From: Kineococcus endophyticus
GTDB lineage: Bacteria > Actinomycetota > Actinomycetes > Actinomycetales > Kineococcaceae
DNA: 64,000 bases
Reading direction: 5' to 3'
NCBI RefSeq assembly: GCF_040796495.1
Contig: NZ_JBFNQN010000015.1
Span: 62,001 to 126,000 of the forward strand
Part shown: piece after piece, positions 15,777 through 38,804 of the stretch
Layout: every line of letters starts with the position of its first letter
Position numbering within the stretch: the first letter of the stretch is position 1
Notes under the pieces: generated by a model
Seen by the model: the letters and a program-made list of their open reading frames with translations, nothing else
Database searches by the model: none
Told to the model about the DNA's origin: nothing
Position numbers and translations under genes: made by a program

Positions 15777-17137
15777 CCACCCCCCTCCGTCGCGAGGTTC
15801 CCGCTCCGCCCGTCCGGATCGTCCACCTGGGCCTCGGGAACTTCCACCGCGCGCACCAGGCCTGGTACACCGCCCGCGCCTCCGACGGCGCGGAGTGGGG
15901 CGTCGCCGCGTTCACGGGCCGGCGTCCGGACGCGGCCGAGAAGCTGAACCGGCAGGACGGGCTCTACACGCTGCTGGTCCGTGGCGCGGACGGCGACCAC
16001 CCCCAGGTCGTCACCTCCATCGCCCGCGCGCACGCGGCCACCGAGCACGAGGAGTTCCTCGACCTGCTGCGCCGCAGCGAGGTCGCGGTCGTGACCCTCA
16101 CCGTGACGGAGGCCGCGTACCTGCTCGGCGCGGACGGCGGGCTCGACGAGCACCGCCCCGAGGTCGTCGCCGACCTCGCCGCGCTGCGCGCCGACGCCAC
16201 CGCCCCCGTGAGCACCGTCCCCGGCCGCCTCGTCGCGGGCCTGGCCGCCCGCCGCGCGGCGGACGCCGGGCCGGTCACCGTCCTGTCCTGCGACAACCTC
16301 GCGCACAACGGGCACGTCACCGGATCCGTCGTGACACGGCTGGCCGAACTCCTCGACCCGGCGCTGGCCGGGTGGATCCGCCGGGACGTGGAGTTCGCGT
16401 CCTCGATGGTCGACCGGATCACCCCGGCCACCACCGACGAGGTCGTCGCGACGGTCGAGGCCCTGACCGGGGTGCACGACGAGTCCCCGGTTCCCACCGA
16501 GCCCTTCTCGGAGTGGGTGGTCTCCGGGGAGTTCCGCGCGGGACGTCCGGACTGGGAGAGCGCGGGCGTCGTGTTCGTCGACGACGTGACCGTGCACGAG
16601 CAGCGCAAGTTGTGGCTGCTCAACGGGTCGCACTCCCTTCTCGCCTACGCCGGCGCGCTGCTCGGCCACCGCACGATCGCCGACGCGGTCGCCGACCCGC
16701 GCTGCCGGGCCTGGGTGGAGACGTTCTGGGACGAGGCGTGCCGTCACCTGCCGATCCCGGCGCAGGACCTCGCGCGGTACCGGGAGGCGCTGCTCGACCG
16801 GTACGCCAACCCCGGCGTCCGGCACCTGCTGGCCCAGATCGCCGCCGGGGGCTCGCTGAAACTGCCGTTGCGGATCGTGCCCGCGCTGCGCGCCGAACGC
16901 GCCGCGGGCCGGTTGCCGGAAGGGTGCGCGACGGCCCTCGCCGCGTGGATCCGGCACCTGCGGGGCGAGAGCACACCCGTCGACGACCCGGCGGCGGACC
17001 GAGCGGTGGCGGCCGCGACGTCCGACGACCCGGTCCGCGCGGTGCTCGACCTGCTGCACCCCGGGCTCGGTGACGACGCGGAACTGGTCGAACTGGTCAG
17101 CTCCCGGCTGGACGTCCTGACGCCCGCGACCGTCTGA
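15773..17137 (+). CDS. uxuB: Mannitol-dehydrogenase-family protein, fructuronate reductase
   Basis: 454-aa NAD-dependent polyol/uronate reductase of the long-chain mannitol dehydrogenase family. N-terminal VHLGLGNFHRAHQA is the nucleotide-binding signature; the active-site K-x4-N-x2-H is seen as KLWLLNGSH (Lys279, Asn284, His287). With uxaC directly upstream (GTGA overlap) the likely reaction is D-fructuronate to D-mannonate. UxaB or a mannitol dehydrogenase is the alternative. Its last 41 bases overlap the convergent lacI-type gene. Confidence 0.88.
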   Translation: MTTPLRREVPAPPVRIVHLGLGNFHRAHQAWYTARASDGAEWGVAAFTGRRPDAAEKLNRQDGLYTLLVRGADGDHPQVVTSIARAHAATEHEEFLDLLRRSEVAVVTLTVTEAAYLLGADGGLDEHRPEVVADLAALRADATAPVSTVPGRLVAGLAARRAADAGPVTVLSCDNLAHNGHVTGSVVTRLAELLDPALAGWIRRDVEFASSMVDRITPATTDEVVATVEALTGVHDESPVPTEPFSEWVVSGEFRAGRPDWESAGVVFVDDVTVHEQRKLWLLNGSHSLLAYAGALLGHRTIADAVADPRCRAWVETFWDEACRHLPIPAQDLARYREALLDRYANPGVRHLLAQIAAGGSLKLPLRIVPALRAERAAGRLPEGCATALAAWIRHLRGESTPVDDPAADRAVAAATSDDPVRAVLDLLHPGLGDDAELVELVSSRLDVLTPATV

Positions 17138-33310: not shown

Positions 33311-34951
33311 CTACATCGCGTCCGGCGCCGCGATCCCGAGCAGGTCCAGACCGGTGGCCAGCGTCCGCCGGGCGGCCGCGCACAACGCGAGCCGGCTGGA
33401 CCGCGACGGTTCCTCCGCCCGCAGGACGGGGCACGCCTCGTAGAAACCCGACACCGCGACGGCGAGGTCGTGCAGGTACCCGCACAACCGGTGCGGTTCC
33501 AGCGTGCGGGCCACCTCCAGCACCACACCCGGGAACCGCGTCAGCACGAACGCCACCCGCAGTTCCGCCGGGTGCTCCAGGACCGTGACCGGCCCCGGCA
33601 CGCCGCCGGCCCGGGCCAGCAGGGTCGCGAGCCGGGCGTGGGCGTACTGCAGGTACGGCCCGGTGTCGCCGTCCGTCCCCACCATCCGCCCGAGGTCGAA
33701 CACGTAGTCCCGACCGAGGCCGGAGGACAGGTCGGCGTACTTCACCGCCCCGATGCCCACGTCCCGCGACCCGGCCCGCTGCTCGGCCTCGTCGAGCAGC
33801 ACCCCGAGGGGGACGGTTCCCCCGTCCCGCGTCTTGAAGGGACGCCCGTCGGCGCCCAGGACCGTCCCGAACGCGACGTGCTCGGCCTGCACGGCGTCCG
33901 GCAGCCAGCCGGCCGCCCGCGCCAGGGCGAAGACCTGGTCGAAGTGGAGGCTCTGCCGGGCGTCGACGACGTAGACGAGGCGGTCCGCACCGTCCACGGC
34001 CACCCGGTGCCGCAGCGCGGTCACGTCCGTCGCGTCGTAGCCGAAACCCCCGTCGGACTTGCGCAGGACCATCGGAGGCAGACCGGGCGGGAACGCGCAC
34101 AGCGCGCCCTCGGACACCCGCAGCAGACCGAGCCCGTCGAGGTCGTCCACCGTCCGCTGCAACCGGTCCTGGTAGTGGCTCTCCCCCACCACGTCAGCCG
34201 GCTGCAACCGGACCCCCAGCCGGCCGTAGGTCGCGGAGAACGCCTCGGCCGACACGGTGACGACCCGCTCCCACAGCACCCTCGTCGCGGCGTCACCGCC
34301 CTGCAGGTCCACGACCCGCCGCCGCGCACGGTCCGCGAAACCCGCCTCCTCGTCGAACCTCCGCCGCGCGGCCCGGTACGCCTCGTCGAGGGCGGCGAGG
34401 TCGGGTTCGGCGGGGAACCCGATCTCGTCCAGGTGTTCCAGGAGCATGCCGAACGGCGTCCCCCAGTCGCCGACGTGGTTGCGCCGCAGCACCTCGTGAC
34501 CTGCAAACTCCAGGACGCGGACGAGGGCGTCCCCGATGACGGTCGACCGCAGGTGCCCGACGTGCATCTGCTTGGCCACGTTGGGCGAGGAGTAGTCGAC
34601 GACGATCCGTTGCGGGACAGAAGGTCTGTCGACCCCGAGGTGTGCGTGCGCGGCGTACCCGGTGACGGTCCGGGCCAGGGTCTCCGGCCGCAGGGTCAGG
34701 TTGACGAAACCCGCACCGGCCAGGACGGGCGGCAGGCACAGGTCGGCGACGTCCAGCGCGTCCACCAACCGCTCCCCGAGCGCCCGGGGTGGTTCGCCCA
34801 GCGGCTTGGCCAGACGCAACGGGAGGTTGGTCTGGAAGTGGCCGAACTCGGGCCGGGTGGCTGTCCGGAGTTCGGGGTCGGCGCCCAGACCGAAGGCGGT
34901 CAGGGCGGCGGCGGAGAGCCGGGACGTGAGGGTGTTCTCGATCGTGGGCAC
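33311..34951 (-). CDS. argS: Arginyl-tRNA synthetase
   Basis: Class I aminoacyl-tRNA synthetase, 546 aa, charging tRNA-Arg. N-terminal Add1-like domain (about 1-90), HIGH-type motif HVGHLRS near residue 135, KMSKS-equivalent KTRDG (about 365) and a C-terminal DALR anticodon-binding domain. Whether it is the only argS of the genome cannot be seen. GTG 34951 follows GAGGAG by 5 bases. Upstream lies an arginine-rich leader peptide with alternative hairpins, implying control by arginyl-tRNA charging. Confidence 0.93.
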   Translation of the reverse strand: MPTIENTLTSRLSAAALTAFGLGADPELRTATRPEFGHFQTNLPLRLAKPLGEPPRALGERLVDALDVADLCLPPVLAGAGFVNLTLRPETLARTVTGYAAHAHLGVDRPSVPQRIVVDYSSPNVAKQMHVGHLRSTVIGDALVRVLEFAGHEVLRRNHVGDWGTPFGMLLEHLDEIGFPAEPDLAALDEAYRAARRRFDEEAGFADRARRRVVDLQGGDAATRVLWERVVTVSAEAFSATYGRLGVRLQPADVVGESHYQDRLQRTVDDLDGLGLLRVSEGALCAFPPGLPPMVLRKSDGGFGYDATDVTALRHRVAVDGADRLVYVVDARQSLHFDQVFALARAAGWLPDAVQAEHVAFGTVLGADGRPFKTRDGGTVPLGVLLDEAEQRAGSRDVGIGAVKYADLSSGLGRDYVFDLGRMVGTDGDTGPYLQYAHARLATLLARAGGVPGPVTVLEHPAELRVAFVLTRFPGVVLEVARTLEPHRLCGYLHDLAVAVSGFYEACPVLRAEEPSRSSRLALCAAARRTLATGLDLLGIAAPDAM

Positions 34952-34956
34952 TGCAG

Positions 34957-35000
34957 CTCCTCGGGGTGCGACGGCGGCGTCACCCCTCGGACGAGGGGTG
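34957..35000 (-). promoter_or_regulatory. Mutually exclusive hairpins of an argS attenuator
   Basis: In the argS transcript, strand 1 (35000-34992, CACCCCTCG) pairs perfectly with strand 2 (34989-34981, CGAGGGGTG). Strand 2 with the next bases (GGGGTGACG, 34985-34977) can instead pair with strand 3 (CGTC then ACCCC, 34973-34963), which touches the Shine-Dalgarno GAGGAG (34962-34957). The leader stop codon is 2 bases before strand 1, so ribosome position would decide which forms. Confidence 0.6.
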
Positions 35001-35002
35001 GG

Positions 35003-35050
35003 TCAGGAGACGCGTCGGCGTCGTCGTCGCAGCACCCGGGTCGAGGACAT
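35003..35050 (-). CDS. Arginine-rich leader peptide of argS
   Basis: 15-codon frame MSSTRVLRRRRRRVS: 7 of 15 residues are Arg, six of them consecutive (CGA CGA CGA CGC CGA CGC), with the infrequent codon CGA used four times. The stop is 2 bases before the first attenuator hairpin and 52 bases before the argS start. AACACT (35062-35057) ends 6 bases before the ATG, in the same register as other leaderless starts in the window. The peptide itself probably has no role; its translation rate would report Arg-tRNA supply. Confidence 0.7.
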   Translation of the reverse strand: MSSTRVLRRRRRRVS

Positions 35051-35067
35051 GGGTCCAGTGTTGCACG

Positions 35068-35787
35068 TCAGGCCGGGAACGGGGAGGCCGCGGACATCCC
35101 GAAGTCGGCGAGGAGGTGCGTGCCGTTCACGGCGGCCGTGAGCGGAGACAGGAGCAGAGCGACGAGCCCGGCCACCTGCTCGGGGGTCTGCACCGGGTAG
35201 GAACTGCCGGAGAAACCCTGCGGGAGTTCCAGGTCCGTGCGCGACATCGGCGTGTCCACGACGCTGGGGCACAGGCAGTTCACCCGCACCCCTTCCGGGC
35301 GCAGGTCCACGGCCAGGCTGCGGCCGAGGGCCAGCAGCGCCCCCTTGGACGTGCAGTAGGGCGCCATCCCCGGCGCGCTGGTGAACGAGGAGTCCGACGC
35401 CAGGAGGACCACCGACGGGTCCGCGCCGGCCCGCAGGAGCGGCGCGGCACCCCGCACGGACAGGAAGGCGCCGAGGACGTTGACGTCCTGCACCCGCGCG
35501 AAGTCGGTGGCGGACACCTCCACCGCGGGGGTGCCGACGGGCCCGGAGATCCCGGCGCAGCAGACGAGCCCGTCCACCGCTGCGCCGAACTCGGCCGACA
35601 CCCGGGCGAACGCCGACGCGACCTGCTCCTCCCGGGTCACGTCGGCGTCCACGTCCGCCCCGCGCAGGTCGATCGCGGTCACCCGCGCCCCCGCGTCGCG
35701 CAACACCCCCACGACGGCGGCGCCGATGCCCGACGCCCCGCCGGTCACCACCACGCGGCGACCGGCGAGGCCCAGGTCGAGCGTCAC
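35068..35787 (-). CDS. SDR-family NAD(P)-dependent oxidoreductase
   Basis: 239-aa classical short-chain dehydrogenase: TGGASGIG cofactor loop (about 15-22), CCAGISG, Ser in LLASDSS and catalytic YCTSK. GTG 35787 overlaps the stop of the MoaF-like gene by 4 bases. It is the last gene of the leftward amine/aldehyde operon. The substrate is unknown. Confidence 0.9.
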   Translation of the reverse strand: MTLDLGLAGRRVVVTGGASGIGAAVVGVLRDAGARVTAIDLRGADVDADVTREEQVASAFARVSAEFGAAVDGLVCCAGISGPVGTPAVEVSATDFARVQDVNVLGAFLSVRGAAPLLRAGADPSVVLLASDSSFTSAPGMAPYCTSKGALLALGRSLAVDLRPEGVRVNCLCPSVVDTPMSRTDLELPQGFSGSSYPVQTPEQVAGLVALLLSPLTAAVNGTHLLADFGMSAASPFPA

Positions 35788-37392: not shown

Positions 37393-38804
37393 GACAGTTC
37401 CGTGGTGAAGTCGACGTCGCGCCGGGAGCCGGCGAGGACCCAGCCGAGGACGGCCATGAGCGGGATGCCGAGCAGCAACCAGACGCCGGCCCCGCTGCCG
37501 CCCAGCGTGGAGTAGTTCGCGATCGCCAGGTACAGGACGACGACGAAACCCACGAGCGCCACGGCCGGGGTGACGGTCGTCCGCCACACCCCCTCCCCTC
37601 CGCCGGCCCGGGGCAGGAACCGCAGCATCGCCACGCAGGTCAGCAGGAGGACGACGACGAGCGAGGCCGTCCCGAGGGCCAGGAGCCAGAAGTAGGTGAC
37701 CGCGATGGGGTCGGCCCGAAACAGCTCGAAACCCCCGAGGACGGCGAACTCGGCGACGCCGATGGCGAGCGCCGCGGCCACGGGCGAGCGGGTCCCGGCG
37801 CTGGTCCGCCCGAGGACGGACGGCAGGGCCCCCGCGCGGCCGAGCGCGAACACGTACCGCGTGAAGAGGTTGTGGAACCCGATGAGCATGGCGAAGAAGC
37901 TCGTGACGACCAGCACGTCCATCACGGTCGCGAACCCCGTCCCGACGTACCGGGCGGCGAGGTCGGGGACGAAGGTCCCGGCGGCGAGCTTGTCGCCCGC
38001 CTCCTGCTCGACGACGCCGAACCCCGCGGCCCCGCCCAGGCACCACGTCGTGAAGGCGTAGAAGACGCCGATGAACCCGATGGCCAGGTAGGCCGCACGC
38101 GGGATGGTCCGGCGCGGTTCGCGCGCCTCCTCCGAGAACACGACGGTCGCCTCGAACCCGGTGAAGCAGGAGACGCAGAACAGGAACGCCACGCCCAGCC
38201 CGGGTACGGCCCAGGAGGACGGGGAGAAACCCTGCAGCGAGAACCCGTCGGGTCCGCCGCCCTGGGCGAGGACGACGACGTCCAGCACGACGAACGTCAG
38301 GACCTCCAGCACGAGCAGGACGCCCAGCACCTTCAAGGAGAGGTCCACCCCGCGGGCCGTGAGCGCCGTCACCAGGACGAGCGAGACCAGCAGCAGGACC
38401 TCGCGGGGCACGGCGACGCCGAGCCGGTTCTCGACCAGTTGCGCGGCGAACACCCCGTACTGGCTCCACAACCCGCACTGCAGCGCGACGTAGCACAGGA
38501 CGGTGATCCCGGCGACGGCCGCGCCCGCGCGGGTTCCCAGCCCGCGGGCGACGTACGCGACGAAACCGCCGGCGTTCGTGAGGTGCCGGCTCATCGTGAC
38601 GTACCCGACGCTGAAGACGAGGAAGAGGGCACCGGCCATGAGGAACACCGCGGGGGTCCCCGGACCGACGCTCGCGAAGACGACGGGAGAACCGCCCACG
38701 ATGGCGGCCATCGGGGCGACGGCGGCCACCACGAAGAAGGTGACGCCGAGGACCCCCAGCCGGCCGCGGCGCAGTCCGGTGAAGGCGAGGGTTTCCTGGC
38801 TCAT
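37389..38804 (-). CDS. APC-family amino acid/amine permease
   Basis: 471-aa transporter with 12 helices. The N-terminal LGVTFFVVAAVAPMAAIVGGSPVVFASVG is typical of actinobacterial APC permeases; FCVSCFTGFEATVVFSEEAREPRRTIPRA is the conserved helix-6/7 loop. Substrate probably an amine, amino acid or derivative. AGGACGACC lies before the ATG. It is 32 bases downstream of the amidohydrolase gene, which could be co-transcribed. Confidence 0.9.
   Translation of the reverse strand: MSQETLAFTGLRRGRLGVLGVTFFVVAAVAPMAAIVGGSPVVFASVGPGTPAVFLMAGALFLVFSVGYVTMSRHLTNAGGFVAYVARGLGTRAGAAVAGITVLCYVALQCGLWSQYGVFAAQLVENRLGVAVPREVLLLVSLVLVTALTARGVDLSLKVLGVLLVLEVLTFVVLDVVVLAQGGGPDGFSLQGFSPSSWAVPGLGVAFLFCVSCFTGFEATVVFSEEAREPRRTIPRAAYLAIGFIGVFYAFTTWCLGGAAGFGVVEQEAGDKLAAGTFVPDLAARYVGTGFATVMDVLVVTSFFAMLIGFHNLFTRYVFALGRAGALPSVLGRTSAGTRSPVAAALAIGVAEFAVLGGFELFRADPIAVTYFWLLALGTASLVVVLLLTCVAMLRFLPRAGGGEGVWRTTVTPAVALVGFVVVLYLAIANYSTLGGSGAGVWLLLGIPLMAVLGWVLAGSRRDVDFTTELS

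Follow-up and report, generated by a model that had tools for sequence, protein, structure and literature searches.

Within a 64-kb stretch of Kineococcus endophyticus DNA (the window), positions 33311–34951 of the minus strand carry a gene, argS2, whose 546-aa product matches the argS equivalog model. The best solved relatives of this product are 6ao8 and 4oby, which we take to be the Neisseria and E. coli enzymes, and its HVGHLRST motif and PFKTRxGGTV stretch could be aligned with them. By sequence, argS2 is assigned as a second, auxiliary arginyl-tRNA synthetase (ArgRS) gene of the E. coli/Neisseria type, not the housekeeping argS. The canonical argS, about 30% identical to argS2, lies on another contig of the same genome, where it adjoins a tRNA-Arg(CCG) gene and, by eye, a lysA-like frame. 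A spare argS copy was found in 5 of the 11 Kineococcus genomes searched. No shared gene neighbourhood was evident, since among ten flanking proteins in four genera no Pfam family was common between genera (a GC3 rule, rather than annotation, defined the genes of the flanks and of the window). Plasmid carriage was considered and rejected, as the 28 matching plasmid records were all below 60% identity.

Upstream of argS2, a 15-codon frame followed by TGA runs on the minus strand from an ATG at 35050 to position 35003 (ATG TCC TCG ACC CGG GTG CTG CGA CGA CGA CGC CGA CGC GTC TCC TGA), with MSSTRVLRRRRRRVS as its product. It contains six successive Arg codons at 35029–35012 (CGA CGA CGA CGC CGA CGC, 4 of the 6 being CGA), all read by tRNA-Arg ACG (ICG), and its TGA is separated by 2 bases from an inverted repeat; for these elements the original prediction was correct in both coordinates and letters. 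It also described a perfect 9-bp hairpin. Although 9 nt of each arm are complementary, nine pairs would leave a loop of only 2 nt, and the realistic stem is taken to be of 8 bp with a GUCC loop (35000–34981, minus strand, as are all elements of this leader region). It consists of a 5' arm, strand 1 (CACCCCTC, 34993–35000), which is retained in a second Kineococcus genome (G003), and a 3' arm, strand 2 (GAGGGGTG, 34981–34988). As had been predicted, GGGGTG of the 3' arm is able to pair with CACCCC (34968–34963), which adjoins the Shine-Dalgarno (SD) sequence GAGGAG (34957–34962) of argS2; the start codon is the GTG at 34951. CACCCC belongs to a pre-SD segment, strand 3 (CGTCGCACCCC, 34963–34973; CGTCGTACCCC in G003), whose partner in the folds is either strand 2 or leader codons. 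In the minimum-energy structure the partner is strand 0 (GGGTGCTGCGACG, 35025–35037), a segment of the leader itself, so that the 3' arm would not be the sole closing structure.

A −10-like hexamer, AACACT (35057–35062), is located 6 nt before the leader ATG and is preceded by TGC, a possible extended −10. This position would probably give a leaderless mRNA for the leader peptide. The hexamer is a poor −10 match, and a sigma-70 promoter scan of 34800–35300 gave no consensus match.

Runs of six or more Arg codons occur 31 times over the six frames of the 64-kb window, and perfect 8-bp hairpins have 23 start positions there; taken singly, the Arg run and the hairpin are unremarkable and prove little. 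The fold energy of the leader region had a z score of −2.64, with 3 of 200 shuffles equally good. An intrinsic terminator scan of 34800–35300, covering only terminators with a U-tract, detected none. Identity with a known RNA family was rejected, as neither the window nor five related loci gave a gathering-score match to a T-box, riboswitch or other Rfam family. Elsewhere in the window, at 38501–38597 (plus strand), ARAGORN reported a tRNA-Gly (ccc) inside a permease frame of the opposite strand; the Rfam tRNA search found none there, and the call is probably a false positive.

Arginine leaders in related actinobacteria

A scan of GTDB genomes gave 433 relatives, the best 80 of which were made into loci. 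At the G003 locus (L005), the leader and the spacer are each 88% identical to those of the window and the first 300 nt of argS are 79% identical, whereas the 100 nt upstream, with 59% identity (shuffled mean 55%, maximum 64%), are unrelated. An Arg-rich mini-ORF is present upstream of all five Kineococcus argS2 copies, either of a short type (MSSTRVLRRRRRRVS, VNSTRVLRRRRRRVR) or of a longer type (e.g. MSSTRADRRDALAASRRRAGRRRLGL). Leaders were also found in 1) Kribbella (MSISLKPVHARRVRFSLRRRRTV, also MTRRRQTA and, as the shortest, MRRRRTA), 2) a group formed by some Nocardioides only (MVTKSALRRRGMGL), 3) Kineosporia (MSQPRASRRSVPAVPGTSRRRALRRRPGR), 4) the MAG locus L034 (MSRPRAPRRTAMVADRRPALRRLRRPVR), and 5) a further genus, g77 (such as MTSSHAYPTASPDVLFGALRRRRSRDRLR).

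Leaders were scored by a rule that demands an ORF of 6–45 codons with at least three Arg in six, the hexamer [TC]ANNNT 6–7 nt before the start, and a location within 400 nt. Of the 64 loci in the leader lineages 56 satisfied it, against 2 of 200 control rows (the 200 include one duplicate, L138 = L053) and 106 of 5280 shuffles. This contrast is descriptive, because the grouping of lineages followed the inspection of their leaders and a leader in one member prompted the search of g77. The failures in the leader lineages were the window itself, whose hexamer begins with A, and 7 of 30 g77 loci. The distance of the hexamer from the start would be that of a leaderless transcript. Among the controls, the rule was passed by none of 20 other Nocardioides loci and by 1 of 56 from Propionibacteriaceae and similar MAGs. 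Like control of the housekeeping argS was ruled out, with 1 of 19 canonical loci passing, which is the shuffle rate, as was a leader common to all argS of the E. coli/Neisseria type, with none in the Streptomyces-like family f27 (0/23) or in the other families (0/82). Judged from these alignments and scans, conservation of the leader exceeds chance, and a conserved arginine leader before an auxiliary ArgRS gene is well supported. The original prediction had placed an arginine leader-peptide attenuator before argS; the leader has held up in relatives, but the gene behind it is the auxiliary copy.

It could be argued that the mini-ORF merely feeds ribosomes to argS2 by re-initiation, or that it is non-regulatory with an Arg run arising by chance. 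Such runs are common in the GC-rich window, and the available text of one study proposes that leader ORFs near genes raise expression through re-initiation (PMC4833913). However, the Arg run is retained across lineages with differing peptides and is found in only 2 of the 200 controls, and the listed leader-to-argS2 distances, at least 41 nt, are far from the 10–11 bp peak given in that text; we therefore regard this explanation as unlikely. Outside the Arg run, no purifying selection on the peptide was detected in Kribbella, g77 or the Nocardioides group, where third-position differences were fewer than those at first and second positions, and three Kineococcus leaders gave a weak synonymous signal (20 third-position differences vs 9 and 9).

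In an ArgRS tree of 106 sequences, from which near-copies chosen by hand were left out, leader presence needs two changes. One clade (24 rows, support 86) comprises Kribbella, the Nocardioides group, Kineococcus, Kineosporia and the MAG; the other (20 rows, support 99, three of them unscorable for the leader) is that of g77, whose leaders apparently represent a second origin. Each of the 27 genomes with a leader that were tested has two argS genes (own genome; 11/11; 15/15), and only one was above the cut-off in 7 of 7 Propionibacteriaceae tested and in each of two g77 genomes without a spare copy. The converse fails, because 16 of 51 genomes have two or three argS and yet no leader by the rule (in G622 the second extra copy was outside the scan).

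Two minor features of these loci were noted. Locus L039, titled Streptomyces sp. SID13031, has an argS2 and a leader that group with Kribbella, and may come from a mislabelled genome. In L005, a tandem repeat of GACCCA-type hexamers is seen by eye at about 1290–1350, some 150–200 nt past the argS2 stop.

Predicted RNA structures and the output of the leader

The leader was modelled with a ribosome footprint of about 30 nt, the A site on the first three CGA codons being the stalled state. Opening the argS2 initiation site is predicted to cost 10.0 kcal/mol with the ribosome stalled, 15.2 with the ribosome at the leader end and 12.4 without a ribosome. This agrees in direction with the original prediction that stalling opens the ribosome site and a ribosome at the stop codon closes it, but the effect is marginal. 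The stall-vs-stop difference of 5.2 kcal/mol (3.2 and 4.9 with two other footprints) was matched by 9 of 200 shuffled spacers, and that of the G003 orthologue L005, 2.7 kcal/mol (1.7 with both other footprints), by 25 of 200. When the ribosome is modelled at the stop, the pre-SD side is paired to strand 2. The minimum-energy fold keeps the hairpin and joins the pre-SD segment to the 5' half of the leader; according to the model, it is mainly this pairing that closes the free RNA. Support for the switch is modest, and for Kineococcus a translational output via masking of the SD is plausible.

The opening of the site hardly varied with ribosome position in two other Kineococcus loci, L006 and L008, and in most Kribbella loci (g77, Nocardioides, Kineosporia and L007 were outside the modelling), and the short Kribbella leaders L024 and L026 gave predicted effects of 1–2 kcal/mol with the expected sign. 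The Kribbella leaders have a hairpin that stops immediately upstream of the SD and whose 5' arm is made of the last Arg codons. Its arms pair more strongly in their native than in permuted combinations (mean −15.9 vs −13.9 kcal/mol, p 0.0005, 17 loci, uncorrected for relatedness), and compensatory changes are seen in L024, L026/L031 and L036/L037. In g77, RNAalifold of 23 sequences gave an invariant 9-bp hairpin after the leader, with double changes in 2 of 33 pairs; as the stem is invariant, it shows little covariation. In the start-proximal hairpin of g77, a single pair is doubly changed, in two sequences. Comparison of relatives, proposed with the original prediction, thus found conserved leaders and, in Kribbella, compensatory changes, but little covariation in g77 and architectures that differ between genera. 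The divergence thus seems to lie in the RNA output, the sensor being common to the genera. As a separate observation, L301 and L305 of g77 have an in-frame insertion in the leader, which brings additional Arg codons and what looks by eye like a small hairpin.

The Kribbella arrangement raises the question of whether ribosome-mediated attenuation acts there, at least, through a transcriptional output, with stalling blocking an intrinsic or Rho-dependent terminator. The location of control codons in a hairpin arm just upstream of the SD, with compensatory changes, would suit such an output, as would the T-rich sequence that follows the stem of L026 and L031, and the Streptomyces trpS and leuS candidates are classical attenuators in the available text of a 2005 survey of Actinobacteria (PMC1262725). 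Against this, the window region has no terminator-like site and several Kribbella sequences, e.g. L027, are missing the T tract. We consider a transcriptional output possible but doubtful.

Codon partition between leader and gene, and the proposed mechanism

The anticodon ACG is read as ICG (inosine), which decodes CGA, CGC and CGT. Own-genome tRNA-Arg genes have the anticodons ACG, CCG, CCT and TCT, one each, among 47 tRNA matches; these three codons thus depend on one tRNA, its ACG gene being single among the four. The ICG-read codons make up most of the Arg codons of the leaders: 6 of 7 in the window, 43 of 45 in Kineococcus, 83 of 90 in Kribbella, 31 of 32 in the Nocardioides group, 9 of 10 in Kineosporia, 7 of 11 in MAG L034, and 118 of 163 in g77 (the other 45 being CGG; the count includes one wrong ORF, in L305). 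The opposite is true of the gene body. Only 8 of the 52 Arg codons of the window argS2 are ICG-read, compared with 718 of 1328 in the other window genes (p = 1.9e-8), which is the second lowest share among 42 genes; CGG is used instead (41 of 52). In the canonical argS of the same genome, 37 of 50 Arg codons are ICG-read.

ICG-read codons are also rarer in argS2 than in the flanking genes in Kribbella (57/649 vs 1523/3403, p = 2e-78), the four loci of the Nocardioides group (50/151 vs 396/668), Kineosporia (9/48 vs 118/247) and g77 (377/1688 vs 664/1571). No avoidance was found in MAG L034 despite its leader (32/58 vs 70/127), in the argS of Propionibacteriaceae (1175/2078 vs 4501/7930, 57% vs 57%) or in 29 other non-leader argS (62% vs 54%), and avoidance was mild in non-leader Nocardioides (54% vs 65%; median −0.13, 10 of 17 below −0.1). 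Codon choice is shifted most for Arg in the window, Kribbella and g77, but not in Propionibacteriaceae; g77 also shifts toward G-ending codons for Val, Pro and Leu.

Per locus, the share was more than 0.1 below that of the flanks in 29 of 32 clade-1 and 23 of 24 g77 leader loci, compared with 28 of 98 non-leader loci (p = 1.4e-12 for clade 1 and 1e-9 for clade 2, relatedness ignored). Six duplicates (L006, L247, L248, L249, L138 and L144) were removed for this test, which left out eleven loci with fewer than 20 Arg codons in the gene or flanks, including leader loci L246, L250 and L255; three g77 loci having an Arg-rich tail but no rule-passing start (L285, L289 and L300) were set apart, 2 of the 3 being below −0.1. 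Strong avoidance occurs in eight non-leader loci and none in three leader loci (L007, L034 and L294). As there are only two independent phylogenetic pairs, the link between leader and codon bias cannot reach phylogeny-corrected significance, and the other p values ignore relatedness.

The CGG bias of argS2 might instead reflect foreign origin or weak expression, the leader sensing arginine and the gene body being unadapted. This would account for the non-leader loci with strong bias and the mildly biased non-leader Nocardioides, and is favoured also by the leader without bias in MAG L034, by a sample of two origins, and by the move of g77 to G-ending codons in other amino acids. It accords less well with a shift that is greatest for Arg and absent from Propionibacteriaceae as a group, and we give it limited credence. 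The partition fits a sensor of one isoacceptor whose target remains translatable.

A different signal is conceivable, in which the ribosome is stalled by the nascent peptide or by antibiotics and not by uncharged tRNA. The +X+ motif causes stalling with macrolides, and the very short Kribbella leaders (MRRRRTA, MTRRRQTA) would be in keeping with such stalling, but the downstream gene encodes ArgRS, not macrolide resistance, and no role would be left for a synonymous codon choice that differs between the leader (ICG-read) and the gene (CGG). This seems to us very improbable.

The ORF, the hairpin, their conservation, the two-copy context and the codon partition are observed features of the locus. 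We propose, as the rather probable reading, that the element is a ribosome-mediated, arginine-specific attenuator of the auxiliary ArgRS which senses tRNA-Arg(ICG), the expression response being a prediction. A promoter directly before the leader ATG would probably make a leaderless mRNA with the sensor in its first codons. Given ample Arg-tRNA(ICG), the ribosome would reach the stop codon and mask strand 1; the leader 5' half and/or strand 2 would then pair with the pre-SD segment, and argS2 would be poorly translated. When Arg-tRNA(ICG) is scarce, the ribosome would stall on the CGA/CGC run and mask the leader segment that sequesters the pre-SD region, hairpin 1:2 would stay intact, and argS2 would be translated. 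With a body written mainly in CGG, read by the CCG tRNA, the enzyme could still be made while the ICG isoacceptor is uncharged. Promoter position, stalling, switch direction and physiological signal are what we infer.

In E. coli, a leader peptide with cognate codons controls pheST; that system shares this principle with the one proposed here, but serves a housekeeping enzyme, is terminator-based and concerns Phe. Vecchione and Sello have reportedly described ribosome-mediated attenuation of Streptomyces coelicolor TrpRS1. TrpRS1 is likewise a second synthetase copy in an actinobacterium, said to be controlled by charging of its cognate tRNA, and differs in that its amino acid is Trp, whereas here there is no known inhibitor, the Arg leader would probably be translated from a leaderless mRNA, and leader and gene divide the Arg codons between isoacceptors. 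In the available text of a review of synthetase duplications (PMC9437257), TrpRS1 is an inducible auxiliary indolmycin-resistant synthetase; that text names TrpRS1 and indolmycin, and 'ArgRS' is absent from it.

The available text of the 2005 survey (PMC1262725) names the pheST attenuator and lists candidate attenuators for Actinobacteria trp operons, leuS and trpS; for the arginine operons of Actinobacteria it reports that conserved upstream RNA structures are absent. Its Streptomyces trpS2 and leuS candidates likewise combine an actinobacterial synthetase with a cognate leader peptide but, unlike the Arg leader, concern Trp and Leu and are classical, with terminators. The translational T-boxes it describes for actinobacterial ileS resemble the present locus in the proposed sequestration of the SD of a synthetase gene; they sense tRNA directly, with no leader peptide, whereas the locus here has no Rfam match. 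Arginine-specific leader control of an actinobacterial synthetase was not found among the open-licence PMC papers listed by full-text searches, and the term 'arginyl-tRNA synthetase' was absent from the matches listed for a resistant ArgRS.

What is new here, and absent from the original prediction, is the isoacceptor split, with CGA/CGC/CGT in the leaders and CGG in the argS2 body. Selective-charging theory (Elf et al. 2003, as given in the available text of PMC1183508) predicts that control codons are those read by the isoacceptor which starvation affects most. The pattern of leader and body codons matches this theory, which that text describes for E. coli leaders, while here an ICG leader and a CGG body belong to an auxiliary synthetase. 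The codon split would provide a direct and inexpensive way of testing selective charging in an organism other than E. coli, and it hints at a natural threat to Arg-tRNA charging. If the attenuator is real, it is another inducible spare synthetase in the phylum after TrpRS1, suggesting that spare synthetases are stress-responsive backups. A wider and more speculative possibility, which we advance tentatively, is an isoacceptor-split emergency system: the leader would be devoted to sensing lost Arg-tRNA(ICG) function, and recoding of the auxiliary ArgRS gene to CGG would allow its expression while that tRNA lacks its amino acid, is inhibited or has been destroyed. The system would have arisen at least two times in actinobacteria on leaderless ORFs, as a defence against a toxin attacking tRNA-Arg, an inhibitor of ArgRS or an analogue of arginine.

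Codon usage of two further kinds may be recorded. Loci L066 (Microlunatus parietis), L061, L068 and L257 carry E. coli/Neisseria-type argS with strong ICG avoidance and no detected leader. In the window, the gene at 15964–16497 (minus strand) is the only one of the 42 with an ICG share below that of argS2 (0.125 of 24 Arg codons).
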